Made by a program: the position numbers and the translations under genes. From IMG/VR virus record IMGVR_UViG_3300048104_000573, positions 1 through 22,361 of that record: 22,361 nucleotides of DNA; one strand, 5' to 3'. The first letter of the stretch is position 1; every line of letters starts with the position of its first letter. This stretch comes from a virus. The notes below the pieces were generated by a model. The model was not told the DNA's origin. It did no database searches and saw only the letters and a program-made list of their open reading frames with translations. Shown here piece after piece: positions 1,865 to 17,875 of this stretch.

Positions 1865-2199
1865 TGTATAACATAAATCAAAATGACTACTCAATTGTAG
1901 AGAATGAAACAAGCGCGTTTCAAGGTGTCAAACTTAAGACAGGCACTTGGAAGAATGTTATAGTCATATATGGACAAGTTGGCGTCAAAGAAGATACAGC
2001 TTTAGATATGGCAACATTAAGCTTTAACTTTACAGTACAGGACCCAGCAGATTTTAGTGTAGACGAACTTGAAAAAGATGAATCATTTAAGAATTACTTA
2101 GGCTCAGTACTACAATATATAATAACAGATAGTTTAGAACATGGAGGACATATTGGAGAACCAACTACCGACACACATACTGAATCACCTTCTACATAA
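1864..2199 (+). CDS. Conserved unknown protein between uvsX and gp41
   Basis: I do not recognise a function for this 111-residue acidic protein. It begins on the uvsX stop codon (TAATG), which suggests coupled translation. The middle (residues 22-60) looks like a beta-rich fold (GVKLKTGTWKNVIVIYGQVG), followed by an acidic helix around residues 66-90. Its last 59 bases overlap the start of the gp41 helicase gene in another frame. I recall short proteins of this kind in the same uvsX-gp41 position in marine T4-like phages, which suggests a replication-linked role, but that is inference from position only. Confidence 0.75.
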   Translation: MYNINQNDYSIVENETSAFQGVKLKTGTWKNVIVIYGQVGVKEDTALDMATLSFNFTVQDPADFSVDELEKDESFKNYLGSVLQYIITDSLEHGGHIGEPTTDTHTESPST

Positions 2200-4952: not shown

Positions 4953-4960
4953 TATAAATA
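4953..4960 (+). promoter_or_regulatory. T4-type late promoter (TATAAATA) at the head of the packaged-protein cassette
   Basis: TATAAATA at 4953-4960 is an exact match to the T4 late promoter -10 element, which is read by the phage sigma gp55 and needs no -35. It sits between the early small genes and the first CTS gene, where a late promoter would be expected. With the usual spacing (-13 to -6) the start site falls at about 4966, which is the A of the ATG. No Shine-Dalgarno site is present between box and ATG. Confidence 0.7.
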
Positions 4961-4965
4961 GATTT

Positions 4966-5940
4966 ATGAAACGATTTAAATCCTTTTTAGAAGAGCAATT
5001 ACAGTTTACTATGTTAACACATAGTGATTTAACAAAGTATGTTAAAAAAGGTAATTCAGAAAGATTAGATACGTTCATAGACAAAATCAAAAATAAAAAA
5101 GAATTTCTTACTACTAAAGGTGAAGTTGTTATTAAAGACAAAGCTCCTGATAGAGAAGAATTTTTAAAGCCAGGATTTAAATTTAAATTTAATACTACTA
5201 AAGGAAATATACAATATCCGGGAGAATTCTTAAAGACTCCTGAATTTGGTGGTAAAGGTAAAGGTTTTGGCACAGCTGCAGAGGATAGATATTTAGCCTC
5301 ATTTAGAACTGAACTAGAAAGAGTAATGGATGAACAAGAAGACGGAGCTCTTGATATGTTAGTCGGTGGTAGGAAAGTAGTAGTATCAGGCGTTGGACAA
5401 CCAAAAGGAACTCCAAAAGCTGACTTCTTTTTACTTGACGACATGGGAGAAGAAGTTGCGTGGTTATCGCATAAAGCTGGTTCAAAATCAAATGACTTTC
5501 AACAATACGGTGGATTGACACCTAGAGGTACAAAAGGAGCATTTGAAAGAAGTAAACAAGTTAATTCATTTATTGAGAAATTAAAAGAATTATATCCAGA
5601 AGGAATGAAAAGTGGAGATTCTGTTAAAAGAGATATAGACCTTAATGGAGATGGAAAAGATATAGTACGTAAATCAATATATGGAATAGATTATGGTGGT
5701 AAACCTGGTCTTAATAATATTGATGAATTCCATCAAGGAGAAATGAAGCTTTCTAAAAAAGGAAAGTTTTGGACAATTACATCAAACCATCAAGCTGAAA
5801 ATGGATTTGTACCAAGAGATGATTATAAAGCTATATTTTATGCAAGATATTCTAGTGACATGAATCATTTTGGTATACAAAGTTGTAGAGCAGGAATCTT
5901 TACATCTACAAGACCAGCTAAAAAAACGGAATTTGTATAA
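4966..5940 (+). CDS. CTS protein with restriction-nuclease-like (PD-(D/E)xK-type) motif
   Basis: This 324-residue protein starts with a CTS-like leader (MKRFKSFLEE), so I infer it is packed in the capsid and trimmed after Glu9 or Glu10. The body has GTPKADFFLLDDMG (148-161) followed by WLSHKAG (166-172) and DFQQYGG (177-183). This is the layout of PD-(D/E)xK nucleases: an Asp at the end of one strand (Asp153) and a Lys (Lys170) in the next, with a helix upstream carrying Glu (ELERVMDE, 116-123). The third acidic residue normally two before the Lys is Ser168 here, so the match is a variant. If active it could cut host DNA at injection, or act on competing phage DNA. The next gene starts on its stop (TAATG). 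Function is a proposal from motif layout. Confidence 0.72.
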   Translation: MKRFKSFLEEQLQFTMLTHSDLTKYVKKGNSERLDTFIDKIKNKKEFLTTKGEVVIKDKAPDREEFLKPGFKFKFNTTKGNIQYPGEFLKTPEFGGKGKGFGTAAEDRYLASFRTELERVMDEQEDGALDMLVGGRKVVVSGVGQPKGTPKADFFLLDDMGEEVAWLSHKAGSKSNDFQQYGGLTPRGTKGAFERSKQVNSFIEKLKELYPEGMKSGDSVKRDIDLNGDGKDIVRKSIYGIDYGGKPGLNNIDEFHQGEMKLSKKGKFWTITSNHQAENGFVPRDDYKAIFYARYSSDMNHFGIQSCRAGIFTSTRPAKKTEFV

Positions 5941-7181
5941 TGAAACGATTAACTACATACTTATCTGAGGCCGCAGGAAAGAATACTCATATGACACATA
6001 TTGAGGATTTGATTCTTGACGGCGGAGTTAAGGGGGCTCGCCAAGCTATCAACGCACTAAGAAGCATGCGTGATATGTTGAGTGGTAATGCTAAAGCACC
6101 TATAGACATTACTGTTAAGTGGGACGGAGCCCCCGCCGTATTCTGTGGAGAAGACCCAAGGGATGGACAATTCTTTGTAGCTAAAAAAGGAATTTTTAAC
6201 GCTGAACCTAAAGTATATAAGTCACATGCTGATATAAAAGCTGATACTAGCGGTGACTTATCTAAAAAATTAATAATGGCTTTTGATAACTTAAAAGACC
6301 TTGGCATCAAAGATGTTATACAAGGCGACTTTATGTTTGACGAAAGCGATTTGAAGAAGGAGACAATCAATGGAATTAAACATATTACTTTCCATCCTAA
6401 TACTATCCTTTATGCTGTTCCTCTCGATACGCAATTAGCAAAGGAAATAGAAAGAGCAAAGATAGGTATTATATGGCATACATCATATAGTGGCAAATCA
6501 TTTGAAACAATGAAAGCTGAATTTGGTAGAGATATAGTTGGTAAATTAAGAAGAACAAAAGATGTTTGGATGGATGATGCAACACTTAAAGATGTATCAG
6601 GTACAGCAACATTAACATCATCTGAAACTGCAATGCTAAATTCTAATCTATCAAATGCAGGTAAGATATTTCAAAAGATTGCGTCTAAATCATTAAAAGA
6701 AATAGAACAAAACAAAGAATTAAACCTAGTTATTAATGTATATAACAATAGAGAAGTAAGAAAAGGGCAGAGAATTACTAATACAGCTAAACATGCTAAA
6801 GGTTTAATAATGTTTGTTAATGATAGATATGCAAAACAGATTGATAAAAGAACTTCTGATGCAGGTAAACAAGTACAAATAGATAAGAGAGATGAATTGC
6901 TTGAATTCTTTAGTAAAAGTAATTTAGACCAATTAAAATTAATATTTGATTTACACAATTATGTTACAGATAGCAAATTAATTATTATAAATAAACTAAA
7001 CGAACTCAATAATATGGGTACGTTTGTAAAAACTAAATCCGGATTTAAAGTCACCGGCGTTGAAGGCTTTGTGGCTATAGATCGAATGGAAGGTGGAGCT
7101 GTTAAATTAGTAGACAGATTAGAATTTTCTACTAATAATTTCAGCAAAGATATTATAAAAGGCTGGGACAATCCAGGCTAA
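5940..7181 (+). CDS. CTS protein with ligase/nucleotidyltransferase-like motifs
   Basis: This 413-residue protein has a CTS-like leader (MKRLTTYLSEA) and motifs in the order of the DNA/RNA ligase superfamily. VKWDGAPAVF (59-68) looks like motif I K-x-D-G, with Lys60 the candidate adenylated residue. VIQGDFMF (126-133) is in the place of motif III, with Asp replacing the usual Glu. ILYAVP (156-161) could be motif IIIa, EGFVAI (375-380) fits motif IV (E-G-x-V), and VKLVDR (388-393) could hold the motif V Lys. A long helical insert (about 160-340) lies between IIIa and IV. I recall this family as conserved but unannotated in marine T4-like phages (DUF6267-like). It starts on the stop of the nuclease-like gene, which suggests paired expression. 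The ligase assignment is inference from motifs. Confidence 0.8.
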   Translation: MKRLTTYLSEAAGKNTHMTHIEDLILDGGVKGARQAINALRSMRDMLSGNAKAPIDITVKWDGAPAVFCGEDPRDGQFFVAKKGIFNAEPKVYKSHADIKADTSGDLSKKLIMAFDNLKDLGIKDVIQGDFMFDESDLKKETINGIKHITFHPNTILYAVPLDTQLAKEIERAKIGIIWHTSYSGKSFETMKAEFGRDIVGKLRRTKDVWMDDATLKDVSGTATLTSSETAMLNSNLSNAGKIFQKIASKSLKEIEQNKELNLVINVYNNREVRKGQRITNTAKHAKGLIMFVNDRYAKQIDKRTSDAGKQVQIDKRDELLEFFSKSNLDQLKLIFDLHNYVTDSKLIIINKLNELNNMGTFVKTKSGFKVTGVEGFVAIDRMEGGAVKLVDRLEFSTNNFSKDIIKGWDNPG

Positions 7182-7200
7182 ATGGGAACCAAGGGTATAA

Positions 7201-8577
7201 ATGTCAATAAAATCATTCAGTGATTATTTAACTGAAAGCACAAAAGAAATTTCGTTTGTTTTTGGACGATTCAATCCTCCGACTATAGGTCATGAGAAAT
7301 TATTTGATGCAGCTAAAAAGCATTCAAGAGGCGGCAATTATCGTGTATACGCGTCGCGTACAGTAGATGCTAAAAAGAACCCACTCCAATTTAAAGATAA
7401 AGTAAAATTCATACGTAAAATGTTTCCTAAACATGCGCGTAGTGTAATGGCTGACAAAGATGTTCGTACAGTACTGGATATAGCAGTGAAATTGTACGAC
7501 CAAGGGTTTACCAAAGTAACTATGGTTGCAGGTAGCGATCGAGTAAAAGAGTTTGATATACTCTTAAACAAATACAACGGTAAAGATTCTAGACACGGAT
7601 TTTATAATTTTGAAGGTGCTATACATGTAGTAAGTGCAGGTGAAAGAGACCCCGATGCCGAGGGAGCATCTGGAATGTCTGCCACAAAAATGCGAATGAC
7701 CGCTCAACAAAATGACCTAGCTGGTTTTGCGAAAGGATTACCAGCTGGGTTTGCAGCAAACGATGTATTTAACGCTGTAAGAAAAGGCATGGGACTAAAG
7801 TTAGAAAATACTTTTAGACAACATGTTGACTTACCAGTTGTTTCTCAAAGAAGAGAAGAATATGTTGGTGGCGAATTATTTCAAGAAGGTGATATTGTTA
7901 ATGTAAAAGGACAAAATACCATTGGCGAAATACTTGTATGTGGTTCAAACTATGTTATAGTAGAATCAGAACTTGGTAAGAATAGACATTGGATTGATGA
8001 TATAGAATTAGCTGAATACAACGAACTTGGTACAGATGCTACAACAGCTCGTTATCTTAAAGATACTCCACTTAGTGGTAATATCCCATTAGCTCCTCAT
8101 TCAAAAGATGCAGAAGCTTTACAAAAAGCAAATAAAAAAGGTGCAATAACTGCACAAGCTAAATATCATACAGGTCTATCTAAATCTACAATAGCAAAAA
8201 GAAAAGCTCATTTTAATAAAAAATCAACTGAGCCAGCTCCTGGAGATGCAAGAGCTAAAACAAAACCATCTAAGCATACTAAAAAGTTTAAACAGATGTT
8301 TGGCGAAATGGCCGACCATTTAACGTTCGAAGATTACGTAATAGAAGCAAAAGGCGCTGATGCAGCATTAAAGAAAAAAGCTGATAAGTCAGGTATGCCA
8401 TTAGCGATATTAAAGAAAGTATTTCAAAGAGGAGTTGCAGCTTGGAAGACAGGTCATAGACCTGGAACAAATGCAGTTCAATGGGGATTAGCAAGAGTTA
8501 ATTCATTCACAACAAAATCAAGTGGAACTTGGGGAAAGGCCGATAAAGATTTGGCTGCAAAAGTAAGAGGAAAATAA
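7201..8577 (+). CDS. CTS protein: HIGH-motif nucleotidyltransferase, SH3-like middle, second CTS-like site and C-terminal domain
   Basis: This 458-residue protein starts with a CTS-like leader (MSIKSFSDYLTES). Residues 17-195 form a nucleotidyltransferase of the HIGH superfamily (NMN adenylyltransferase or cytidylyltransferase type): GRFNPPTIGHEKL (22-34) carries the T/HxGH box, GSDR is at 111-114, and GMSATKMR (158-165) replaces the ISST-K/R motif. Residues 214-270 look like a small beta-barrel (FQEGDIVNVKGQNTIGEIL). A basic linker leads to TFEDYVIEA (375-383), a second CTS-like peptide inside the protein, followed by a compact C-terminal domain (KSGMPLAILKKVF, then AAWKTGHRPGT and WGLARVNSF) that I recall as a separate domain in many marine phages (DUF5824-like). 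Cleavage after Glu382 would release that domain. Substrate cannot be told from sequence; NMN to NAD is one option. Confidence 0.87.
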   Translation: MSIKSFSDYLTESTKEISFVFGRFNPPTIGHEKLFDAAKKHSRGGNYRVYASRTVDAKKNPLQFKDKVKFIRKMFPKHARSVMADKDVRTVLDIAVKLYDQGFTKVTMVAGSDRVKEFDILLNKYNGKDSRHGFYNFEGAIHVVSAGERDPDAEGASGMSATKMRMTAQQNDLAGFAKGLPAGFAANDVFNAVRKGMGLKLENTFRQHVDLPVVSQRREEYVGGELFQEGDIVNVKGQNTIGEILVCGSNYVIVESELGKNRHWIDDIELAEYNELGTDATTARYLKDTPLSGNIPLAPHSKDAEALQKANKKGAITAQAKYHTGLSKSTIAKRKAHFNKKSTEPAPGDARAKTKPSKHTKKFKQMFGEMADHLTFEDYVIEAKGADAALKKKADKSGMPLAILKKVFQRGVAAWKTGHRPGTNAVQWGLARVNSFTTKSSGTWGKADKDLAAKVRGK

Positions 8578-8579
8578 AA

Positions 8580-8813
8580 ATGAAAACATTTAGAGAAATA
8601 AGGGAAGCTAAAGTAAAGCAAATCAAGCTTGATTTCGATGTAGGTGACCCAAGAGAATTTGCGCCGGATTGGCAAGAAGAAGGAGTGTTCCTAGTCAATT
8701 GGAATAAAAGAAAAATGGAAATGACTGTTGAAGGAGAGCCAAAAGCTTTAATGAAATGGTTAACCGGTACATATGGTTACAGCTCAGCTGAAGCTAAGAG
8801 GGCTATGAAATGA
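8580..8813 (+). CDS. Small CTS protein, unknown
   Basis: This 77-residue protein begins MKTFREIREA, one of the closest matches to the T4 CTS, and would be cut after Glu9. The remaining part is a small alpha/beta domain: LDFDVGDP, VFLVNW and MEMTVEGEP strands followed by ALMKWLTGTYG and a short helix. The strand-helix unit MEMTVEGEPKALMKWL resembles LTVKGSKKKVEKWL in the protein encoded at 9496. It starts two bases after the stop of the preceding gene and ends in an ATGA overlap with the next. Function unknown; packaging is inferred from the leader. Confidence 0.78.
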   Translation: MKTFREIREAKVKQIKLDFDVGDPREFAPDWQEEGVFLVNWNKRKMEMTVEGEPKALMKWLTGTYGYSSAEAKRAMK

Positions 8814-9496
8814 TGAAATTTAAACAACTCAGAGAAAAATATATAGAAGAAGCTTCATTCTCATCAAGTCTAATAAAAAGAGCTGTTAAAATAGCTAAAG
8901 ATATGGGTGGGAATATGACTGGTGCTTATAAAAAAATCGAAAGAATGAAAAAAGGTTTAGGCGACCACCCAGATGTCGAAAATGCATTAAGACTTGCTAA
9001 CGAATCTGTTAGTGAAGGTACAATGGCTATTGGTATTAAAGATAGAGACCCAAAAGAAAGAGCAAAAGCTCAAGCACAACTTTCAAGCATGTTAAAAAAA
9101 GATGGTAATAAAAAAGTAGGTTCTAAAGAAGGTAAAAAGTTTGATGAAGTATTAGATACTTACATATTATCAGACGATTTATTAGCAGATGAATTTGCAA
9201 ATCCAAAAAACAAAAATATGAAAATAATAGATTTGCTAAACAAACATGCTAAAAGACTTAGAGTTGATTTTTCAGAATCTCTTGAAGAAGGTTTTATGAA
9301 AAAGATGTCGCAAATACAGATAAAAAGAAAGTATGGAAGAGTAATCAAAAGAGCTTTATCAAAAGGCAGCCTTGAACTTCCATCAGATGCAGAAGAAGCT
9401 TTGTATATGTACGCATTCGATAACGGAGAAATAAAAACAGATGACCCTGATGAATTTACTGACTGGTTAGATGACAATTTAGAGGACTTTTCATAA
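8810..9496 (+). CDS. Multi-domain CTS protein with ESxxE/G linkers
   Basis: This 228-residue protein has a CTS-like leader (MMKFKQLREKYIEEA, cut expected after Glu14); the start could be either of two adjacent ATGs at 8810 or 8813. Three bodies follow, separated by similar peptides. Residues 15-64 are helical (SLIKRAVKIAKDMGGNMTG to DVENALRLAN), a block I recall in several marine phage proteins. ESVSEG (65-70) then separates residues 70-155, and ESLEEG (156-161) separates a final acidic helical domain (161-228). Both linkers put Glu before Gly, which fits the gp21 preference for small residues after the cut. I infer a packaged precursor cut into three or four pieces. Biochemical roles are unknown. 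Confidence 0.8.
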   Translation: MMKFKQLREKYIEEASFSSSLIKRAVKIAKDMGGNMTGAYKKIERMKKGLGDHPDVENALRLANESVSEGTMAIGIKDRDPKERAKAQAQLSSMLKKDGNKKVGSKEGKKFDEVLDTYILSDDLLADEFANPKNKNMKIIDLLNKHAKRLRVDFSESLEEGFMKKMSQIQIKRKYGRVIKRALSKGSLELPSDAEEALYMYAFDNGEIKTDDPDEFTDWLDDNLEDFS

Positions 9497-10455
9497 TGAT
9501 AAAGTTTAAAGAACTAAGAAAACTAAACGAAGTTAATGGCCAAGAAGGTCCAGTACTTAGAATGAGCTATAAGCCTCAACGTCAAAGCAGAAAATTACCA
9601 AGTCATTCTACTATTACTAAATCAGATTTATATGATGATGTTATATACAATAGTAAGAATTGGGAAATAACTGCTAATACTAATTCATTAGCAATAAGAA
9701 TGCCAAACCCTAAAGGTCATGAAAAAGATAGAAAAGATTGGATGGACTTAATAAATTCAGCAAAAGGAGATACTTCTAATATGATTAGAGGTGGTGGTCT
9801 TACTCAGTCAGAAGTTGATGAACTTATAAGAGATATGAAAAAAGCAGCTAAAGATTTTGGACCAACTAAAATGGTAGTGCAAGAACATGAAATATATGTA
9901 TCACATAAAACACCAGGAAAAATGAAAGTAGTAAAAGGTCTTATGTCTATGCTTAAAGCTCTTGATGAGTTTGGTATGAGAAACCATGTAAGCGTTGCAA
10001 GTAAAGATGGCGTATTAACTCGTATACAAGATGCTGGTCAATATAATTATAATGAATCTGTTAACGTTAACGAAGAAACATTTAAGTTAGTTGATATGTC
10101 AAAAAAGACAGCAGCTATAGCGGATAAACTTGCTAAAAAAATCGGACTAGATACTGATTTTGAAGGTGGAGTTACAGGCGTAGAACTAACTGTAAAAGGT
10201 TCTAAAAAGAAAGTAGAAAAATGGCTACAATCATTACCAACAGAAAGTGTTAATGAAGGTAGGTATACAGCTGATGATGGCGGAGCATTTGATTCTTTAA
10301 GAATCGCAAAATATCTTGCTCATCAAGATGGTAAAAAATGGAGAGGATTACCTTATGGTACTTTATCAAGCTACATAGATGATGGCATGGAAATGCTTAA
10401 ACGAAACAAATCAAAGGCAAGAGAGATATTATCTCAGCCAACACCGAGGGATTAA
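9496..10455 (+). CDS. Multi-domain CTS protein with VNE linkers
   Basis: This 319-residue protein begins MIKFKELRKLNEV, a CTS-like leader ending in LNE (Glu12). Residues 20-180 form the first domain, alpha/beta in look, with WEITANTNSLAIRMPNP and EHEIYVSHKTPGKM segments. NESVNVNEE (186-194) leads into a second domain (195-248) ending in ELTVKGSKKKVEKWL, which resembles part of the protein at 8580. ESVNEG (250-255) leads into a third, helical domain (255-319; RIAKYLAHQDGKKWRGLPYG). The repeated L/V-N-E ends are what a prohead protease could cut. It starts on the previous stop codon (TAATG) and is separated by two bases from the next gene. No enzymatic motif recognised. Confidence 0.8.
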   Translation: MIKFKELRKLNEVNGQEGPVLRMSYKPQRQSRKLPSHSTITKSDLYDDVIYNSKNWEITANTNSLAIRMPNPKGHEKDRKDWMDLINSAKGDTSNMIRGGGLTQSEVDELIRDMKKAAKDFGPTKMVVQEHEIYVSHKTPGKMKVVKGLMSMLKALDEFGMRNHVSVASKDGVLTRIQDAGQYNYNESVNVNEETFKLVDMSKKTAAIADKLAKKIGLDTDFEGGVTGVELTVKGSKKKVEKWLQSLPTESVNEGRYTADDGGAFDSLRIAKYLAHQDGKKWRGLPYGTLSSYIDDGMEMLKRNKSKAREILSQPTPRD

Positions 10456-10457
10456 TC

Positions 10458-11003
10458 ATGAAAGGATGGAAAGAAACATACACTAATATAGTATTAGATG
10501 AAAAATTAGGCAGAAAAACAGTAAGACTTGTTAAAGATTTAGAAAAAGCTATTGATAAAACAGGCGACTTAATTAAACAATTACCTGAAGAACTGGAAGT
10601 TATTAATGGAGATTATAGTGAATCTTACGGAGAATTAAATTCAGGACAAAATTCTTTAGAATACGGAATACGTCATCTAGAAGGCGATTTAAAAAGTTTA
10701 GACAGCTTGTCTGGTGTAGACGAAGAAATAGTCAACGAAAGACTTAAGTATCATTCTAAAAGTCCAGCTGAGCTTAAAGGTTCTGAATTCGATAGAAAAC
10801 AAGAAATTAAAAACATTAAAAAAATGTTAAAAATGATTGAAAAAGCTCATGATTTTCATTCAAAATTTCAATATAATAATAGAGCAGCTGGTGAGCCCGC
10901 TAAAATTACAGATGGTTTGTTTGCTTCAGAAAGTGCATTGTATAATTACATGATTGATATTGAAGATGGTAAGTGGGATGGAAAGGTAGACTTAGAAGAC
11001 TAA
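10458..11003 (+). CDS. Helical CTS-like protein, unknown
   Basis: This 181-residue protein has a longer, less typical leader, MKGWKETYTNIVLDEKLG, with aromatic residues and the closing Glu of the CTS pattern (cut possible after Glu15). The rest is charged and helical, with long Lys/Glu/Leu-rich stretches (residues 22-50 and 110-145) that could form coiled coils. No catalytic motif is visible. Its stop overlaps the ATG of the next CTS gene (TAATG at 11001-11005). Function unknown. Confidence 0.75.
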   Translation: MKGWKETYTNIVLDEKLGRKTVRLVKDLEKAIDKTGDLIKQLPEELEVINGDYSESYGELNSGQNSLEYGIRHLEGDLKSLDSLSGVDEEIVNERLKYHSKSPAELKGSEFDRKQEIKNIKKMLKMIEKAHDFHSKFQYNNRAAGEPAKITDGLFASESALYNYMIDIEDGKWDGKVDLED

Positions 11004-11182
11004 TGAAAACATTCTACGATTACTACACAGAAAAGCTAGAGAAAGATGCTGATATGGAAGAACATAGACAGATATCTGTATTTAATCCTCAAGCTCCAGG
11101 CAAATGCAGAAGATTACTCAAACGTTGGGGTAAGGTTAATAAAAGAAGTAAAGCAAAGACACAAAGAAAACTAGGTACATGA
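11003..11182 (+). CDS. Small basic CTS protein
   Basis: This 59-residue protein starts at 11003 with MKTFYDYYTEKL. A longer frame opens at 10973 inside the preceding gene, but the leader and the TAATG junction point to 11003. After the leader and a short acidic part (KDADMEEH) comes a strongly basic tail (CRRLLKRWGKVNKRSKAKTQRK) suited to binding DNA or RNA. Cleavage could follow Glu10 or one of the Glu residues at 19-20. It ends in an ATGA overlap with the next gene. Packaged small basic proteins fit the T4 internal-protein model. Confidence 0.75.
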   Translation: MKTFYDYYTEKLEKDADMEEHRQISVFNPQAPGKCRRLLKRWGKVNKRSKAKTQRKLGT

Positions 11183-11403
11183 AGAATTTTAAAGAGTATG
11201 CTAAAATAGAAGAAGGTTCATTAGTAATGGATGATTCTGCTATATTAGATTCTATATGGAATGAAGTCAAAAAACAGTTAGAAAAGGATTTAAAAAAAGG
11301 TAATGTAGAAAGAACTAACTTAATAGCAAGATGGGCAAAGTTTAAAGTAACTAAATCCGGCCAAGCAAGAGGGAGGTCTTTTAGATATGACCTTAAAAAA
11401 TAA
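11179..11403 (+). CDS. Small CTS protein, unknown
   Basis: This 74-residue protein begins MKNFKEYAKIEEGS, a clear CTS-like leader with a cut site before Gly13. The body is a charged helix (LDSIWNEVKKQLEKDLKKG, about residues 24-42) and a basic C-terminal part (IARWAKFKVTKSGQARGRSF). It starts in an ATGA overlap with the previous gene and is one base from the next start. No known motif. Packaging and delivery are inferred from the leader only. Confidence 0.77.
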   Translation: MKNFKEYAKIEEGSLVMDDSAILDSIWNEVKKQLEKDLKKGNVERTNLIARWAKFKVTKSGQARGRSFRYDLKK

Positions 11404-11404
11404 T

Positions 11405-11911
11405 ATGAAAACATTTAAAGAACACGCAGAAATAAAAGAGTTTAGAAGTTCAGGAGGATTTGATGACATTGCATCACTTCGTATGATGGATGGACAAATA
11501 ATGATTCAAGAATTTATTTATGATGTTCTTAAAGTAATATGGGCCTGTACTAAACTAATAGTAAAAATAATGCTTAAAGGCAGTGAAGGTCTTTATTATG
11601 GCGCTAAATGGTCTATATCAGGTTTATATGGTAGATATAATAAGCTAGCAAAAGCAACTAGAAAAGCTGAAAAAGCTATGAAAAAAGCTAAATCAGCAGA
11701 AGATTTAAGAGCAGCAAAGGTACATTATATTGACGCAAGACTTAGACTTCAAACAGAAAGAGACATGATTGATGAGTTATCAAAAGAAGAAAAAGCAATA
11801 TATAAAGCAGATATTGCAAAGATAACTAAATCATTTGATAAGATTAGTAAGACTATAACAAAGATTGAAAAAAATCCAGATATGAAAATTAAAGATAAGA
11901 GGTTAAAGTGA
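11405..11911 (+). CDS. CTS protein with hydrophobic segment and long helical tail
   Basis: This 168-residue protein starts at 11405 (MKTFKEHAEIKEF); an upstream in-frame ATG at 11387 lies inside the previous gene and would place six residues before the leader, so the later start is preferred. After the leader, residues 30-66 are hydrophobic and aromatic (FIYDVLKVIWACTKLIVKIM and LYYGAKWSISGLYG) and might enter a membrane. The rest (70-168) is a Lys/Ala/Glu-rich helix of coiled-coil type. The leader is nearly the same as that of the protein at 15539 (TFKEHAQLDE), although the bodies differ. Function unknown. Confidence 0.77.
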   Translation: MKTFKEHAEIKEFRSSGGFDDIASLRMMDGQIMIQEFIYDVLKVIWACTKLIVKIMLKGSEGLYYGAKWSISGLYGRYNKLAKATRKAEKAMKKAKSAEDLRAAKVHYIDARLRLQTERDMIDELSKEEKAIYKADIAKITKSFDKISKTITKIEKNPDMKIKDKRLK

Positions 11912-12258
11912 TATCATTTAAGACATTTCTAGATGAAAAAGGTCCAGGGCTTTGGGCTAACATTCGTAAAAGAAAAGCAAGTGGAAAACGAATGCGTAAG
12001 AAAGGAGAGAAAGGTGCTCCTACAGCAGCTGCAATGAAATCAGCATCAGAAGGTTCAGGTAAAAAAGAAACTTGGGAAGATGGATATAAAAGAAGAGTTG
12101 TACAAACATCTAGTCCTGAGCATAAAGAAAAAGGTTTTAATTGGAGAATCAAAGGTAAAGATAGAGATGAAGTAACGATTAAGTTATATAAGTCTAAGCC
12201 AGATTTTAAAGAGTATACAAAACAAATGAAAAGAGTAGCTGGCCATGAGTTTGGTTAA
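11908..12258 (+). CDS. Highly basic CTS protein, GTG start
   Basis: This 116-residue protein starts at a GTG (11908) overlapping the previous stop (GTGA); the resulting N-terminus MISFKTFLDEKG fits the CTS pattern, which supports the start, with a cut after Glu10 before Lys-Gly. Residues 12-48 (PGLWANIRKRKASGKRMRKK, then GAPTAAAMKSA) are a basic, Gly/Ala-rich block I recall in many marine phage proteins. A second part (about 78-116) has FNWRIKGKDRDEVTIKLY strands and a final helix. The high charge suggests DNA or RNA binding. Function unknown. Confidence 0.78.
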   Translation: MISFKTFLDEKGPGLWANIRKRKASGKRMRKKGEKGAPTAAAMKSASEGSGKKETWEDGYKRRVVQTSSPEHKEKGFNWRIKGKDRDEVTIKLYKSKPDFKEYTKQMKRVAGHEFG

Positions 12259-12616
12259 TTTTAAAGAGTTCACAACAACGTTCGGTTTATACGAAGAAAC
12301 TGGTCAACATGTACCTTTAGAACAACCAATGATTGAAGGACCTGAATTAAATAAACCTAAAAGGTCTGGTGGTCCAAGCAAATACGTTGTATACGTAAAG
12401 AATCCAAAAACAGGTAATGTAATGAAGATTAATTTTGGAGATAAGAAGGGTGGTTTATCATCAAAGATAAATGACCGTGATGCTGCAAGAAACTTTGCTT
12501 CAAGACATAACTGTGATACAAAGACTGATAAAACGAAAGCGGGTTATTGGGCTTGTAGATTACCTAAGTACGCTAAAGACTTAGGATTAAAAGGTGGAGG
12601 TAATTACTTTTGGTAG
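12245..12616 (+). CDS. CTS-like protein with conserved RHNCDTKTDKTKAGYWACR motif
   Basis: This 123-residue protein has a stretched leader (MSLVNFKEFTTTFGLYEE, cut possible after Glu17 or Glu18). A beta-rich middle (KYVVYVKNPKTGNVMKINFG, residues 47-66) leads to the striking stretch ARNFASRHNCDTKTDKTKAG and then YWACRLPKYAKDLG (about 81-114). I recall this pattern in small proteins of many marine phages; its paired Cys and His residues might bind a metal, but this is a guess. It overlaps the previous gene by 14 bases. Function unknown, packaging inferred. Confidence 0.78.
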   Translation: MSLVNFKEFTTTFGLYEETGQHVPLEQPMIEGPELNKPKRSGGPSKYVVYVKNPKTGNVMKINFGDKKGGLSSKINDRDAARNFASRHNCDTKTDKTKAGYWACRLPKYAKDLGLKGGGNYFW

Positions 12617-12882
12617 ACCTACCTTTTGCATCCGAAGAAATAATTGGCGGTGAGATAAGAGAATTCTTCCTCGATCGAGATGATGAAGAATATGTTTGGC
12701 ATCGTGACCATGAACCGCGTGAAGTTGAAATACTCGAGGGTGAGGGATGGCGTTTTCAATATGAAAACTGTTTGCCATATTTGTTAGAACCTGGAATGAT
12801 TTTTGATATTCCAAAAGGAGAATATCATAGATTAATTAAGGGATATAATAACCTTAAATGTAGGATAATCAAGAATGGATAA
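12610..12882 (+). CDS. Cupin-like small protein, TTG start
   Basis: This 90-residue protein has no CTS leader and starts at a TTG (12610) just before the previous stop, giving MVDLPFASEE. The body looks like a single cupin barrel: VWHRDHEPREVEILEGEGW (29-47) resembles cupin motif 1 with two His and a Glu, and EPGMIFDIPKGEYHRLI (61-77) resembles motif 2 with its His. Such proteins often bind a metal and a sugar or small acid. I recall similar short cupins in cyanophages. It overlaps both neighbours by a few bases. The substrate cannot be told. Confidence 0.75.
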   Translation: MVDLPFASEEIIGGEIREFFLDRDDEEYVWHRDHEPREVEILEGEGWRFQYENCLPYLLEPGMIFDIPKGEYHRLIKGYNNLKCRIIKNG

Positions 12883-13186
12883 AGATTTGCAACAAGTATA
12901 TACAGTCCAGTCTCAAAGGTTGGATAGAATTGAAGAGAAATTAGACCAAATGGCTCAGGCGATAGTAGCGCTTGCGAGAGCTGAGGAAAAGATTTCGACT
13001 CTGGCTGAATTTAATAAGCAGCAGTCAGAACAGATACAAAGTCTTATAAATAGAATAGACCGAGTGGAGCAATTAGTGAATAGCAATGCAAGCACGGTTA
13101 ATGTAATAAATAGAATATTCTGGGTTATATTAGTTGGTTTAATATCAGCAATAACTTGGGAATATATAATTCATTTAAGCAATTAA
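12875..13186 (+). CDS. Coiled-coil protein with C-terminal membrane anchor
   Basis: This 103-residue protein is a heptad-like coiled coil (residues 8-72: QVYTVQSQRLDRIEEKLDQM onwards) followed by one hydrophobic segment near the C-terminus (about 78-98, INRIFWVILVGLISAITWEY). This layout, with helix outside and a C-terminal anchor, resembles XhlA-type phage proteins and some lysis accessory proteins, but no family motif decides it. It starts 8 bases before the cupin stop. A late-promoter-like box lies inside it (13045-13052). Function unknown; lysis or membrane association is a guess. Confidence 0.75.
   Translation: MDKDLQQVYTVQSQRLDRIEEKLDQMAQAIVALARAEEKISTLAEFNKQQSEQIQSLINRIDRVEQLVNSNASTVNVINRIFWVILVGLISAITWEYIIHLSN
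13045..13052 (+). promoter_or_regulatory. Possible T4-type late promoter upstream of the 13199 gene
   Basis: TATAAATA occurs here in the 12-base context CTTATAAATAGA that is identical to the box before 4966. It lies inside the coiled-coil gene, 147 bases before the ATG at 13199. Similar octamers occur by chance in AT-rich coding DNA, so only the shared flanks and position upstream of a large probable late gene support it. Confidence 0.4.
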
Positions 13187-13198
13187 CGGAGAATAAAA

Positions 13199-14557
13199 AT
13201 GAACAACATGTTTAACGATGATATAACAACAAGCATTGCTAGCACAGTAAGAGATGTACTTGAAGGCAAGCCAGCTGTTATTAAGGAGGAAGTAAAATAT
13301 CCTCACGATATGTTTCACCCAAAAACAGGTGAAAAAGAAGTAGCTAATAACGAAAAAGAGCATAAAGCTTTAGACGCTAAAGGTTATACACATAAAAAAA
13401 ATGAAGTAGCACAACCACAAAAACCATCTGGTAAACTAGGACAAGATTCTGGTGAAAAAGACTTTGCTGATAAACATAAAGGCAAGAAAGTCGGAGAAAA
13501 GGAAGACGGTACTGTAGTTAAAGAAGCAACTATTAGTGTTAGCGAAAAGCTAAAGAAAAGCGGTAAAGATACTTTAGATGTAGATTATATCGGTGATGAT
13601 AGATTAACTAAAGAACTTGAAAAAAAGTTCAAAGTAAAAATCAAATCAACAGGTAACACTACAGCTGATATAACAGGCGATAGAAAAAACATTATTAACC
13701 TATTAAAATCAGATGCTTATCTTATGGATGAAGATGAAATCGAAGATACATTTCCATCATTAGCTGAAGAAGTTCAACCTGAAGAAGACGAAGCTAAATT
13801 AAAAGAATCAGAAAAGCAAGCAGCTTATCAAAAAGTATTTAAAGCAGGACTTAAAAAGTTTGGCGCAAGCGGTATTGGCGATATGGATGATGCTAAGAAG
13901 AAAGAATTCTTTAATTGGGTTGATAAGAACTATAAGTCTAAAGCAGAAGAAATTGAAGCTAAAGGAAAAGACGAAGAAGACGTAAATGAAGCTATGTCAC
14001 AGAAAGATATGGAAAAACGTCTAAAGCTTATCAAAAAGGCTGTTGAGAAAATCAATAGACAAAACCTAAGAAATGCTAAAGCAGACGCTATGAAGATGAT
14101 GAAGCAATCTGGAATGTTTGATGAAGATGCATCTGACGAAGAAGAGGTTGATGAACTTACTGATAAACAAAAGAAACTTCCAGCTGGTTTACAAAAAGCT
14201 ATTAAAGCAAAAGAAAAGGAAGAAGTAAAAGAAGACGTCAGAGACATGAAAAACTATAAAGATAGAGATCGTAAAGGTCATGAAGCTTATATGAGTATTC
14301 AAGTTGTTAAAGGTAATACTAGCAATAAGTTTGATGATGACTTCGGTTTTTCTAAAGCTGAGATGGTTATGATGGATAAACTTATTAGCAAAATCAAGAA
14401 TATGCATGTATCTAGTTTTGATGGTGGTTCTTCAGGGCCAGCTTCTTTAGAGTTCTACGGTGACGAAGCTTCTCTTAAGAAATTTATAGCAGATAAAAAT
14501 GTACAAAAGATTGTTAAGAAATATAAAGGTAAAGTATCAGGACCAAATAAGGCTTAA
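13199..14557 (+). CDS. Large charged virion-core-like protein, possible polyprotein
   Basis: This 452-residue protein is very rich in Lys and Glu/Asp and has a good ribosome binding site (CGGAGA, 13188-13193 region). It starts MNNMFNDDITTSIASTVRDVLEG rather than with the common leader. Blocks I recall in marine phage proteins are YPHDMFHPKTGEKEV (34-48) and LTDKQKKLPAGLQKAI (320-335). It contains several Glu sites of the kind used by prohead proteases: DVLE/G (22), VVKE/A (109), SLAE/E (189), DVNE/A (264). Two small strand-helix units (TTADITGDRKNIINLL, 154-169; ASLEFYGDEASLKKFI, 415-430) resemble those in the CTS proteins. It may be a prohead core/scaffold protein or a packaged polyprotein. 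Which is right cannot be decided from sequence. Confidence 0.72.
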   Translation: MNNMFNDDITTSIASTVRDVLEGKPAVIKEEVKYPHDMFHPKTGEKEVANNEKEHKALDAKGYTHKKNEVAQPQKPSGKLGQDSGEKDFADKHKGKKVGEKEDGTVVKEATISVSEKLKKSGKDTLDVDYIGDDRLTKELEKKFKVKIKSTGNTTADITGDRKNIINLLKSDAYLMDEDEIEDTFPSLAEEVQPEEDEAKLKESEKQAAYQKVFKAGLKKFGASGIGDMDDAKKKEFFNWVDKNYKSKAEEIEAKGKDEEDVNEAMSQKDMEKRLKLIKKAVEKINRQNLRNAKADAMKMMKQSGMFDEDASDEEEVDELTDKQKKLPAGLQKAIKAKEKEEVKEDVRDMKNYKDRDRKGHEAYMSIQVVKGNTSNKFDDDFGFSKAEMVMMDKLISKIKNMHVSSFDGGSSGPASLEFYGDEASLKKFIADKNVQKIVKKYKGKVSGPNKA

Positions 14558-14575
14558 TTATCTCTTATAGATAAT
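14557..14575 (+). other. AT-rich hairpin between the 13199 and 14578 genes
   Basis: ATTATCT (14557-14563) and AGATAAT (14569-14575) form a perfect 7-base inverted repeat around a 5-base loop, starting at the stop codon of the large gene and ending two bases before the next ATG. It lacks GC pairs and a T tract, so it is a weak terminator at best; it might affect translation start of the next gene. Confidence 0.45.
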
Positions 14576-14577
14576 AT

Positions 14578-14949
14578 ATGATGAAAATATTTGACGAATT
14601 GACAGACAAAAACTTTAAACTTTTTGCAGCGCAACAATATAACAATCCGGAATGTACGGATGTTGAAGAATTTAAGAATGACCTTTCAAGATTTAAGTAT
14701 CTTAAAAGGCTACTTACAAGATATGAAGAACATGGCGAATTACAAGAGAGACTAATACTCAATCACATCATAGTTCTTTATAACGTATTTGGTATACAAT
14801 CTTGTAATAAAATGATGTGGTTTAAGATAGAAAAAGAACACTATCAATATATTAAACCATTTTTAGTTTATCTTCACTATCTACCAGAGGATGAAAAGGT
14901 TGAAGTTGTAATGGACCCTAATATTGTAGAGGTATTAAGAGAACTATAA
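14578..14949 (+). CDS. Conserved marine-phage protein of unknown function (123 aa)
   Basis: This 123-residue protein matches a family I recall as widely conserved in T4-like marine phages: FDELTDKNFKLFAAQQYNNP near the N-terminus, FKNDLSRFKYLKRLLTRYEE (residues 32-51), then LQERLILNHIIVLYNVFG (55-72) and YIKPFLVYLHYLPED. It is helical throughout. The N-terminus (MMKIFDEL) faintly resembles the CTS leader but no clear Glu cut site follows, so I do not count it. It couples to the next gene by TAATG. The consistent pairing with the next gene suggests a shared role, perhaps structural. Confidence 0.83.
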   Translation: MMKIFDELTDKNFKLFAAQQYNNPECTDVEEFKNDLSRFKYLKRLLTRYEEHGELQERLILNHIIVLYNVFGIQSCNKMMWFKIEKEHYQYIKPFLVYLHYLPEDEKVEVVMDPNIVEVLREL

Positions 14950-15542
14950 TGGGAATTATATCAAGAGCAGGAGATTTATTTTACGCATTTCGATTTTTGA
15001 AATTGCTCGTTACTCCGTTCGAGAAAACGAAAGCTTTTGAACTTGGTATAATAGACGAAAAAGGTAAGGTACTTAAGAAAGCATCAAAAAGAACTAAGCC
15101 AGAAGAAAAATCTGCTTATACTGTTTTTCACAGACTCGTATTTAATCTTAAAAGGCTCGTAGGTAAAGTACCTGGCGGAAGGTCTGTAGTAGCACGTTAT
15201 GGAGCTGCTCTTTTCCTTATAAGAGAACACACTGGAATGTCAGAAAAGAAAATGCTAGAGACATTAGAAAAAGTATTAGAAATCGATATTGATTCAAATG
15301 AACTAAATGAAAGTACATGGTATCAAGATGATGACTTTAATCTTTTTCCAGGTAATTATATACTAACAGAAGATATAGCATCGATTACAACAGGTGAAGT
15401 TATTGCTCTAAAAAATCAAAGAGTTGTAGTAAAAGAATTACAAGCACCAATTGGAAGCTTCTCGAATATAAATATCTATAGGGTCAAACATTCAAAGACG
15501 AATCAAGACCTTTATATAACTAATAGGGATATATGCAGATGA
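14949..15542 (+). CDS. Conserved marine-phage protein with possible C-terminal SH3-like domain
   Basis: This 197-residue protein starts on the previous stop. Residues 16-95 (RFLKLLVTPFEKTKAFELGI, VFHRLVFNLKRL, YGAALFLIREHTG) are a block I recall as conserved in T4-like marine phages. After an ELNES stretch (118-122), which looks like the L-N-E linkers of the CTS proteins, residues 132-195 form a beta-rich domain (FPGNYILTEDIASITTGEVI, then INIYRVKHSKTNQDLYI) similar in layout to the middle domain of the nucleotidyltransferase at 7201. Function unknown. Its end overlaps the next CTS gene. Confidence 0.82.
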   Translation: MGIISRAGDLFYAFRFLKLLVTPFEKTKAFELGIIDEKGKVLKKASKRTKPEEKSAYTVFHRLVFNLKRLVGKVPGGRSVVARYGAALFLIREHTGMSEKKMLETLEKVLEIDIDSNELNESTWYQDDDFNLFPGNYILTEDIASITTGEVIALKNQRVVVKELQAPIGSFSNINIYRVKHSKTNQDLYITNRDICR

Positions 15543-16018
15543 TGACATTTAAGGAACATGCTCAGTTAGATGAAGCATTTCCACTTGCAGGTCTTATAGG
15601 TGCAGCACGTATAATAAGTTTTGGATTAACAAGAGCTGGTATAAACGTTGCTAAAATAGTGGCGCCTTTTCCTTTTGGTGGAATAAAAGGTGCAATAGGC
15701 GGAACCGTATTAGGAAGCATAGCTGCTAAATATGGCTGGGATAGTATTATAGAAACTCAAGCCCTTGGAACGCGATTAGTAATGGATATAGCAAAAGCTT
15801 TTGGTGGAAATATTTCAGCTGCAGTAGCTGCAGCAATATTTGAAAAGGTATTAATTATTGGAACTACAGTAACTTTAGGAGCTTTATTATTAGTATTAGT
15901 ACCAGCGAAAACTCGTAAGAAAGTATCAAGATCGATAAAAAGTTTTAAGAAAAAGACTTTAAAAATGTCAGATATAAAAGCTATAGGTAAAAAAATAAGA
16001 AATGAAAAGAACATTTAA
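15539..16018 (+). CDS. Hydrophobic glycine-rich CTS protein
   Basis: The leader MMTFKEHAQLDEAF fits a start at 15539 or 15542; an ATG at 15533 would add two residues. A cut after Glu12 would expose a hydrophobic protein of about 147 residues. Segments at roughly 14-35 (PLAGLIGAARIISFGL), 48-68 (GGIKGAIGGTVLGSIAA) and 92-125 (AAVAAAIFEKVLIIGTTVTL, then GALLLVLVP) are long enough to cross or insert into membranes, with Gly-x3-Gly spacing like glycine zippers. The C-terminus is very basic (KTRKKVSRSIKSFKKK). A packaged membrane-active protein is unusual; a role in DNA entry or altering the host membrane is a guess. The leader nearly repeats that of the gene at 11405. Confidence 0.78.
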   Translation: MMTFKEHAQLDEAFPLAGLIGAARIISFGLTRAGINVAKIVAPFPFGGIKGAIGGTVLGSIAAKYGWDSIIETQALGTRLVMDIAKAFGGNISAAVAAAIFEKVLIIGTTVTLGALLLVLVPAKTRKKVSRSIKSFKKKTLKMSDIKAIGKKIRNEKNI

Positions 16019-16235
16019 AGAATTTGAATCAATGTGGGAAGACGCAGCAGCAAATTCTGTAGGCGGTGGTGGTGTATCAATGCCAGCAGATGCAATGGGT
16101 AAAGCAGCTCATAAAAAACATAAGAAAAGAGTTTACGATGGTAGAACTAAAGAAGGTAAAGCCTTTGTTAGAAGAATACTAGATAGAAGAAATAAGAAAA
16201 TGCTGAAAGGGAGCAAGATAGATGAAAACGTTTAA
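16002..16235 (+). CDS. Small basic CTS protein with Gly-rich linker
   Basis: This 77-residue protein starts MKRTFKEFESMWEDAAA, a CTS-like leader with a cut possible after Glu13 or in the following Ala stretch. Next is a Gly-rich linker (NSVGGGGVSMPADAMGK, residues 18-34) of a type I recall following leaders in other marine phage proteins. The rest is strongly basic (KKHKKRVYDGRTKEGKAFVR), including an RRILDRRNKK stretch, and could bind nucleic acid. It overlaps the previous gene by 17 bases. Function unknown; packaging inferred. Confidence 0.78.
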   Translation: MKRTFKEFESMWEDAAANSVGGGGVSMPADAMGKAAHKKHKKRVYDGRTKEGKAFVRRILDRRNKKMLKGSKIDENV

Positions 16236-16515
16236 TGAGTTTAAAAAAGAATTAAGTGAAGCTTATAAGTTTGATAAAAACGACTTTAGGTACTGGAGAC
16301 CTGGTGGAATGGAACTTAAGCTTAGAAATGGCGCATACGGATATGACGTTGAACAGGCATTTAAAAAGGCTGGATATGATGTATATGGTAGAGATGTAGA
16401 TATTAATAGAGATTCTATTAAATTTAACTCATACAGTAAGCATTGGGGAACAGATGATAAAAAAATACGTAAAGTAGTATTAGATGTTCTTGGTGTAGAT
16501 ATCGAAAAATTATAA
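16222..16515 (+). CDS. CTS protein with small alpha/beta body
   Basis: This 97-residue protein has one of the clearest leaders (MKTFNEFKKELSEAY, cut expected after Glu13, giving SE/A as in T4 AE/A). A good ribosome binding site (AAGGGAG, 16207-16213) precedes the ATG. The body has an aromatic segment (FRYWRPGGMELKLRNGAYG, residues 22-40), a helix (DVEQAFKKAGYDVYG), strands and a final helix (KIRKVVLDVLGVD). It is the last gene with a leader in the window. No known motif. Confidence 0.8.
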   Translation: MKTFNEFKKELSEAYKFDKNDFRYWRPGGMELKLRNGAYGYDVEQAFKKAGYDVYGRDVDINRDSIKFNSYSKHWGTDDKKIRKVVLDVLGVDIEKL

Positions 16516-16516
16516 T

Positions 16517-16759
16517 ATGAAAGATTTTGTTATTAACATGTGGGAAAAAATCAAATGGTTTTTAAGACTATTCCAGAAACGATATACAATTCATGTATCA
16601 TTCGATAATCAATGGGGTAATGGCGACGACCAAACTTACGTACATGTAAGAAAAATAATCAAAGCAAATTTTAAAGAATTAAAGTTTAGAACTGATGATA
16701 AAAGAACGGTGCATATAAAAGGTATGCAAGGTTTAAGATATAAGATAGAGGACGAATAA
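16517..16759 (+). CDS. Small unknown protein, conserved in marine phages
   Basis: This 80-residue protein begins one base after the previous stop. It has an aromatic amphipathic N-terminus ([17 protein letters not shown], residues 5-21) and then a small beta-rich domain ([41 protein letters not shown]). I recall the SFDNQWG...[10 protein letters not shown] pattern in other T4-like marine phages. It has no Glu-ended CTS leader. Its stop overlaps the acyl carrier protein start. Function unknown. Confidence 0.75.
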
Positions 16760-16974
16760 TGATTGAAAAAATAATTTCAGAACAGTTAGGTGTTGAAATA
16801 GATACAGTGACTGATGATAAAAACCTAATGAATGACCTAGGCGCAGATTCATTAGATACAGTACAATTAGTAATGGATATTGAAGAAGAATTTGATATAG
16901 AAATTACTGATGAAGATGCCGAATCACTACATACAGTAGGCGATATTAGAAAATATATAGAGGACAATACATAA
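16759..16974 (+). CDS. acpP: Acyl carrier protein (phage-encoded)
   Basis: This 71-residue acidic protein is an acyl carrier protein. [20 protein letters not shown] (27-46) is nearly the same as the E. coli AcpP core, with Ser31 the site for the 4'-phosphopantetheine arm, added by a host enzyme. The following [20 protein letters not shown] completes helices III and IV. ACP carries growing fatty acids and also meets other host proteins such as SpoT, so a phage copy may redirect lipid synthesis or signalling. Both ends are coupled to neighbours by TAATG and TAATGA junctions, placing it next to the spanin genes. It is full length (E. coli 78 residues), and the active-site serine is intact. Confidence 0.95.
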
Positions 16975-17357
16975 TGAATCAAATGATGATTGGATTAGTA
17001 CTTATTCTTGGACTAGGAGGTTTTTATCTATATAATGAAAATCAAACTCTTACACAGAATAATATCAAATTAGAAGCAGCTGTTGAAGAACAAAAACAAA
17101 CAATGGCTATAATGAAAGAGCAATACGAAAAACAAGGTAAAGCTCTTATGAACATGAGTAGAGTAAATGCTCAAATAGAAGCTGATAAAGCTGAATATTT
17201 GGCTATATTTTCTAGACATAATTTAGATGTACTTGCACTAAAGAAGCCTGGACTCATGGAAAAAAGATTTAATGATGCAAGTGAAAAAGTAATGGAGGGA
17301 CTTGAAGATGATACTAAAGAATTATATAACCTTAGTAATCCTACTATTAATAACTAG
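16974..17357 (+). CDS. Probable i-spanin (Rz-like)
   Basis: This 127-residue protein has an N-terminal membrane segment (about residues 5-20, MIGLVLILGLGGFYLY) and then a long coiled-coil region (24-70, LTQNNIKLEAAVEEQKQTMA onwards). This is the layout of Rz-type inner-membrane spanins, which pair with an outer-membrane lipoprotein to disrupt the outer membrane at lysis. The next gene, a lipoprotein, starts inside its 3' end in another frame, the usual Rz/Rz1 arrangement. Sequence family membership is not recognisable beyond topology. It implies a Gram-negative host. Confidence 0.77.
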   Translation: MNQMMIGLVLILGLGGFYLYNENQTLTQNNIKLEAAVEEQKQTMAIMKEQYEKQGKALMNMSRVNAQIEADKAEYLAIFSRHNLDVLALKKPGLMEKRFNDASEKVMEGLEDDTKELYNLSNPTINN

Positions 17358-17820
17358 TGGTTGTTCTTTATTAGGAACAAAACAACTAGAGGTCGTATCT
17401 AAACCTGTACAAATAGATATCATGCAACCAGATTTGCCAAGGACTGTTGATTTAACAGCGCCAAAATGGTATGTTGTATCTGAAGCAAGAATAACAAATC
17501 CATGTAAAAAAATAGAAGATAAGAGACCAAAAACATGTGACTTATCTGAAAGAGAAAATCCTGATTGGCCAGAAGGTTATACATATCTGGATAGATTCCT
17601 TGATGAAATGAAGGAACAAAATAATGGTGAAGTAGTTTTTGTAGCTACATCAGTTGGTGACTATAAAGTTATGGCTGAAGATATGCAAGAACTTAAAAGA
17701 TACATAAAACAATTAGGTGAAGTCGTTATATATTATAGAAACGTTACGATGCCTAACGGTGAGAAAGGTGTCGGAGTTGGAGTACAAACTCCTGAAAATG
17801 TAGCCGAAATAAGAGGCTAA
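17308..17820 (+). CDS. Probable o-spanin (Rz1-like) lipoprotein
   Basis: The start chosen is ATG 17308, placed nine bases after a GGAGG site (17294-17298); a TTG two codons upstream is too close to it. The product is 170 residues with a lipoprotein signal: ILKNYITLVILLLITSGC, the Cys at residue 19, with a slightly atypical lipobox (T-S-G-C). A Pro-containing segment follows (VSKPVQIDIMQPDLPRTVDL), then a globular part (PKWYVVSEARI; LDEMKEQNNGEVVFVATSVGDYK; MQELKRYIKQLGEVVIYYRN). It overlaps the i-spanin gene by 50 bases. It is longer than classic Rz1 but I recall similar proteins in T4-like cyanophages. Role in outer-membrane disruption is inferred from topology and context. Confidence 0.82.
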   Translation: MILKNYITLVILLLITSGCSLLGTKQLEVVSKPVQIDIMQPDLPRTVDLTAPKWYVVSEARITNPCKKIEDKRPKTCDLSERENPDWPEGYTYLDRFLDEMKEQNNGEVVFVATSVGDYKVMAEDMQELKRYIKQLGEVVIYYRNVTMPNGEKGVGVGVQTPENVAEIRG

Positions 17821-17836
17821 AAACTTAAAATAAACG

Positions 17837-17865
17837 TTTACAAATCGCACGATTTGTGGTATAAT
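17837..17865 (+). promoter_or_regulatory. Early-type promoter of the nrdA-nrdB-redox operon
   Basis: TTTACA (17837-17842), 17-base spacer, TATAAT (17860-17865), with TG at 17857-17858. It matches the promoters at 486 and 3840. The predicted start is about 17872, only four bases before the nrdA ATG at 17876, so there is no room for a ribosome binding site. Confidence 0.85.
17840..17857 (+). promoter_or_regulatory. Palindromic operator-like site inside the nrdA promoter
   Basis: ACAAATCG (17840-17847) and CGATTTGT (17850-17857) form a perfect 8-base inverted repeat around a 2-base centre. It starts inside the -35 box and ends at the T of the extended -10, so a protein bound here would block RNA polymerase. 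The other two promoters of the same type lack it. It does not match the NrdR box I know. Confidence 0.6.
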
Positions 17866-17875
17866 ATATAATATA

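Follow-up and report, generated by a model that had tools for sequence, protein, structure and literature searches.

A cassette of genes with leaders resembling the T4 capsid targeting sequence in a fragment of a marine T4-like phage

Here we describe a cassette of leader-bearing genes at positions 4966 to 16515 of the viral record IMGVR_UViG_3300048104_000573 (22,361 bases, hereafter the window), which its gene content identifies as a fragment of a marine T4-like phage. A first-pass annotation had proposed that fifteen genes of this interval begin with variants of one short peptide, and each of them is indeed present as an open reading frame (ORF) on the plus strand (Table 1). Twelve of the leaders are strong and three are weaker (those of the genes starting at 11003, 16002 and 10458). 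The observation is confirmed. The bodies behind the leaders are unrelated to one another.

The leaders and their cut-site motif

The leader was formulated as a rule: an aromatic or hydrophobic anchor at residue 3-6, a hydrophobic, aromatic or His residue at +3, and then hydrophobic-x-Glu. This rule is matched by 13 of the 40 called genes in the window, against 1.16 +/- 0.94 (maximum 4) in 200 shuffles of residues 2-26. When the motif is restricted to L/I-x-E and its Glu to residues 9-17, it is carried by 13 of the 15 proposed genes; the mean of 2000 shuffles was 3.05 and 13 was never reached. Among the 26 other genes of the window, 6 have it (Fisher P 1e-4), as do 17% of internal windows. The two exceptions are gene 11003, without L/I-x-E, and gene 16002, with MWE; gene 10458 has LDE, but a poor core (MKGWKETY). 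In T4, the propeptides are 10-19 residues long and the prohead protease gp21 cleaves after the same L/I-x-E (PMC9026906). Furthermore, the leader residues shared between genes are written with synonymous codon differences, and therefore selection acts on the peptide and not on the DNA.

The flanking genes for uvsX, gp41, acyl carrier protein (ACP), nrdA, nrdB, cytochrome c and glutaredoxin are devoid of the leader; the high score of nrdB (20369, MAILHKNKKSHLEKN) in a position-specific scoring matrix (PSSM) was rejected as a false positive. The cassette is not pure, since five genes within the interval (12610, 12875, 13199, 14578 and 14949) lack the leader. The protein of 13199-14557, which is found in the cassettes of many relatives, conserves its start (FNDDITxSIA or similar) and a C-terminal KKFGVxSPxxLxxxKKKEFFxYVDKNY, and is possibly a core or docking protein.

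Table 1. Features of the cassette and, below them, neighbouring genes of the window (a slash marks the end of the leader)
Position	Strand	Feature	Remarks
4953..4960	+	T4-type late promoter TATAAATA	five bases upstream of first leader gene
4966..5940	+	MKRFKSFLEE/Q leader, 324-aa body, phrog_13937	leader kept as M[KL]RFK(S/T)(F/Y) in relatives 67-90% identical
5940..7181	+	MKRLTTYLSE/A leader, DUF6267 with ligase-like KxDG, EGFV	Pfam 1e-101
7201..8577	+	MSIKSFSDYLTE/S leader, cytidylyltransferase/NMNAT-like (T4-GC190 homologue) plus DUF5824	homologues in four published virion proteomes
8580..8813	+	MKTFREIRE/A leader, 77 aa	
8810..9496	+	MMKFKQLRE/K or ..YIEE/A leader, 228 aa	
9496..10455	+	MIKFKELRKLNE/V leader, 319 aa	
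10458..11003	+	weak leader MKGWKETYTNIVLDE/K, 181 aa	L/I-x-E present, core rule failed
11003..11182	+	leader-like MKTFYDYYTEKLEK, 59 aa	no L/I-x-E cut site
11179..11403	+	MKNFKEYAKIEE/G leader, 74 aa	
11405..11911	+	MKTFKEHAEIKE/F leader, about 168 aa	longest ORF begins 11387
11908..12258	+	MISFKTFLDE/K leader, 116 aa, phrog_16028	GTG start
12245..12616	+	MSLVNFKEFTTTFGLYE/E leader, 123 aa, phrog_7595	
13199..14557	+	leaderless, acidic, Lys/Glu-rich, C-terminal KKKEFFxYVDKNY motif	kept in relatives' cassettes
15533..16018	+	MQMMTFKEHAQLDE/A leader, 161 aa	Ala/Gly-rich body
16002..16235	+	MKRTFKEFESMWE/D leader, 77 aa	cut motif MWE
16222..16515	+	MKTFNEFKKELSE/A leader, 97 aa	
812-1864		uvsX/recA	carries T4 UvsX C-terminal domain
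2141-3538		gp41-type helicase	
17876		nrdA	downstream of cassette
20369		nrdB	downstream of cassette
22055		glutaredoxin	

The T4-type late promoter ahead of the cassette also precedes the first cassette gene of many relatives, and its position fits synthesis of the cassette at the time of head assembly. Within the window the motif occurs at five sites, which is not above chance (4.8 expected). In relatives it precedes 43 of 292 leader genes, compared with 15 of 959; as this enrichment stems for the most part from a single orthologous site seen repeatedly, it does not count as independent evidence. As a separate observation, the spacing between the promoter and the ATG of gene 4966 is the same in the relatives L003-L005; since the motif ends five bases before the ATG, late transcripts may begin at or next to the start codon, as leaderless mRNA.

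Conservation in relatives and resemblance to the T4 internal proteins

Across 80 related viral contigs, the leader is attached to 29 families of bodies, where shuffling predicts 2.6. The count of 29 is approximate, since repeats chain family 0 together and the 29 contain at least one false positive, nrdB. Contigs of at least 12 kb contain 2 to 11 leader genes each, disposed around the same DUF6267-cytidylyltransferase pair with changing neighbours, and in a 130-kb relative six of the eight matches to the rule lie in the cassette, within 9 kb of one another. The leader of the 7201 homologue is recognisable in about 70 metagenomic relatives whose bodies are 50-100% identical.

A leader profile was trained on the window and the 80 related contigs, with T4 left out. 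When the 277 ORFs of T4 were ranked with it, 61.1 came first and the internal proteins (IPs) IPI, IPII and IPIII, their names confirmed by annotation, fell within the top eight. At the level of sequence, this result connects the leaders of the marine phages with the capsid targeting sequence proven in T4, where the first ten residues of the IPs suffice for head targeting (PMC9026906). The leader MKTYQEFIAEA, which had been attributed to all three IPs, is that of IPII and IPIII, whereas IPI starts with MKTFKEFTSTTT. T4 gene 61.1 (54 aa, hypothetical; L112 18966-19130), which starts MKTFKEFIKE/D, is also the best BLOSUM62 leader match of T4 after IPII and IPIII, and its product is possibly an overlooked T4 internal protein.

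A protease of the gp21 family (PF03420, Peptidase_S77) is encoded in all nine records first tested, and also in three long metagenomic relatives and in DLP_6, KVP40, S-SCSM1 and S-SM1. C48C1, Melnitz, HTVC008M and the T4-like cyanophages possess it, as does every full-length Kyanoviridae relative examined. None was found in S-TIM5 or S-CBWM1, two phages that are not assigned to Kyanoviridae; its absence from seven shorter metagenomic fragments is uninformative.

The cassette resembles the IPI, IPII and IPIII system in leader sequence and length, in L/I-x-E, in unrelated bodies, in accessory variability and in the gp21-family protease, seen here in the relatives of the window. It differs in bringing together 13-15 genes in one 11.6-kb block, placed between gp41 and nrdA, against three genes in two loci in T4, in including large enzyme-like proteins (DUF6267, NMNAT-like), and in the position +3 from the anchor Phe, which varies more (His, Tyr, Ile and Leu being common). 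The ejection proteins of the giant phages phiKZ and SPN3US are likewise numerous; they too are contained in the head, and a protease related to gp21 cleaves them after Glu. These belong to a different phage group, and the likeness is drawn from literature descriptions alone.

Leader-bearing proteins in published virion proteomes

All virion data considered here are published proteomes of related phages. The T4-GC190 cytidylyltransferase/NMNAT has been detected in virions of S-SM1 (PMC3037559), S-SCSM1 (PMC9602691), S-SZBM1 (PMC9146016) and S-CREM2 (PMC10665884). These four proteins are direct homologues of that of 7201-8577, occupy the same genome place and bear leaders, namely MKKFSAFLNE/A in S-SM1, MKSFLQFLKE/A in S-SCSM1, MRFRQFIIE/A in S-SZBM1 and MKNFSSFLTE/A in S-CREM2, all of which end in hydrophobic-x-Glu followed by Ala. 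In the parts available, the source reports call them virion-associated and leave the targeting mechanism unstated. In S-PM2 the NMNAT is fused to upstream DUF6267 sequence, has no leader and was reported as not detected in virions (PMC3037559); this is a single negative case, and detection depth varies among studies.

S-CREM2, for which 52 virion proteins are tabulated (PMC10665884 Table 3), allowed a broader comparison. All of its 219 proteins were scored with BLOSUM62 against the T4 MKTYQEFIAE, with no training. Five of the six best leader-like non-structural proteins are in the virion (Fisher P 0.0012 for the top five): the NMNAT (ORF154), ORF136, a kinase (ORF14), a SAM hydrolase (ORF6) and ORF13. 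The PSSM derived from the lineage of the window separated the S-CREM2 virion proteins weakly, because it was overfitted to the local FKEH variant, and a further PSSM, made wider, drifted and was rejected. In a Cas9-like virion protein of S-CREM2, ORF12 (L095 7704-10313), the annotated start is followed at residues 18-26 by RFASFMAEA, a segment resembling the capsid leader.

Several points weigh against the link between leader and head. The best-scoring S-CREM2 protein, gp83, and the also leader-like gp175 were not detected in the virion proteome. When all non-structural virion proteins of S-CREM2 were taken together in an untuned Mann-Whitney test, significance was not reached (P 0.26), the majority of those detected having no leader. 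A T4-shaped regular expression yielded five virion proteins among six matches (P 1.7e-4), having been composed after the S-CREM2 leaders were known. Moreover, carry-over may account for some of the proteins detected in virions, a caution raised by the S-CREM2 authors themselves (PMC10665884). S-SZBM1_136 (L168 15695-16294) and S-SZBM1_139 (16989-18362), from the same cassette region, were detected in virions without a leader, hence another route into the particle exists. Finally, the 22-kb fragment has no gp21, gp22 or gp23; it is a record without its head genes, and the search for gp21 in it was uninformative.

Proposed route, cargo and alternatives

Altogether, we consider it very likely that the products of the cassette, some 13 to 15 in number, are internal head proteins which a marine T4-like (Kyanoviridae-like) phage delivers with its DNA. 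The leader, the unrelated bodies, the cut motif, the presence of gp21 in relatives and the late promoter agree with capsid targeting of the T4 type. Each protein would carry a capsid targeting sequence of 9-17 residues, M-x(1-4)-F-x-x-[F/Y/H/I/L] and then L/I-x-E, which, upon late expression, would dock it onto the scaffold core of the prohead. A gp21-type prohead protease would then cleave after the Glu and release the body within the head, DNA would be packaged around the freed bodies, and these would enter the next host with the DNA, where they would probably act in the first minutes, on metabolism or against defences. The first-pass annotation was right on the leaders and very probably right on packaging as well, given that leader-bearing proteins, including the direct 7201 homologue, occur in the published virions; for the phage of the window itself, packaging is a prediction that homology supports well. 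Cleavage at these leaders and effects on the host we infer, and injection with the DNA would follow by analogy with T4.

As for the cargo, most bodies show no match to a known function. The 7201 protein has an intact catalytic-motif stretch, GRFNPPTIGH, in which the (H/T)xGH motif is found, and matches PHROG cytidyltransferase at 3e-86, Pfam CTP_transf_like being below cut-off; NAD repair against NAD-depleting defences would be an attractive reading. In DUF6267, K60, D62, G63, E375, G376 and K389, within the motifs KxDG, EGFV and VK, are invariant in 36 sequences, and in Foldseek its best match and several others are DNA ligases, at weak E values of 0.08 to 2. The family phrog_455 covers both DUF6267 and the cytidylyltransferase, which are therefore joined in some phages. 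A nuclease assignment for the 4966 body was dropped (low-confidence model, pLDDT 71, pTM 0.47, no fold match). For the small variable proteins, counter-defence would be the likeliest role by analogy, since IPI-III of T4 block type IV restriction enzymes (PMC12373910).

The leaders could also target the prohead core while the proteins aid head assembly or DNA condensation, instead of being delivered as effectors. Several bodies are small and Lys-rich, resembling DNA-condensing proteins, and in T4 the IPs are basic proteins, present in abundance and associated with DNA (PMC9026906, PMC3012670). We regard this as unlikely, as the set has enzymes (NMNAT-like here; SAM hydrolase and kinase in S-CREM2) and the make-up of the cassette differs widely among relatives, as expected of accessory effectors, while the T4 IPI-III themselves are anti-restriction proteins inside the host (PMC12373910).

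That the shared N-termini would be a feature of expression, or would stem from gene starts duplicated recently, and would have nothing to do with packaging, is very improbable. The richness in A of starts such as ATGAAAACATTTAAAGAA could favour translation, but the codons vary synonymously, L/I-x-E at a narrow distance is unnecessary for translation, neighbour genes of the same base composition have no leader, and leader-bearing homologues are present in virions. Slightly less credible still is the idea that the leader directs proteins to another place (baseplate, membrane or degradation), its gp21-like cutting being a coincidence: the leaderless virion proteins packaged by other routes may be cited in its favour, yet the leader profile retrieves the T4 IPs, in which the leader suffices for head targeting.

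Internal head proteins delivered with the DNA in this manner are not a new kind of system, given that T-even phages have at least ten such proteins (PMC12373910), T4 itself having three known IPs. The cassette represents the known internal-protein system of T4 in a marine form and on a much larger scale; what appears to be new is its size, the presence of enzymes among the cargo and the occurrence of the system in Kyanoviridae. Within the open-access papers searched, "capsid targeting" and "cyanophage" co-occur only in a T4 review. In biological terms, we tentatively suggest, with somewhat more doubt than conviction, that the cassette may be a swappable, late-expressed payload of at least a dozen effectors, among them an enzyme that makes NAD and a ligase-like nucleotidyltransferase, delivered with the DNA as a ready-made counter-defence and repair kit, and that, by means of the leader, sequence alone may suffice to catalogue the proteins which many ocean phages inject.

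With this cassette, a T4 curiosity would become a probable general rule for abundant ocean phages, and the leader would predict which uncharacterised phage proteins travel in the head. It would also offer a mechanism for hitherto unexplained virion findings in cyanophages (NMNAT, kinase, SAM hydrolase). The cassette itself would constitute a direct list of candidate first-minute effectors, and its natural set of leaders could be useful for studying protein loading into phage heads.

Concerning the origin of the fragment, no phage record matched the window in DNA-level comparison. The DUF6267 protein is closest to those of C48C1, Methylophilales phage Melnitz, Stenotrophomonas phage DLP_6 and Pelagibacter phage HTVC008M, followed by hundreds of cyanophages, and the gene order uvsX, gp41, DUF6267, cytidyltransferase, variable genes, primase, nrdA, nrdB is common with S-PM2. 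Directly downstream of the cassette lies an ACP gene (16759-16974) with a DSL attachment site. Adjoining nrdB, a cytochrome c gene (21439-21876; CAACHG haem motif, Pfam 3e-8) is followed by a small membrane protein and then glutaredoxin, and constitutes an unusual auxiliary gene for a T4-like phage.

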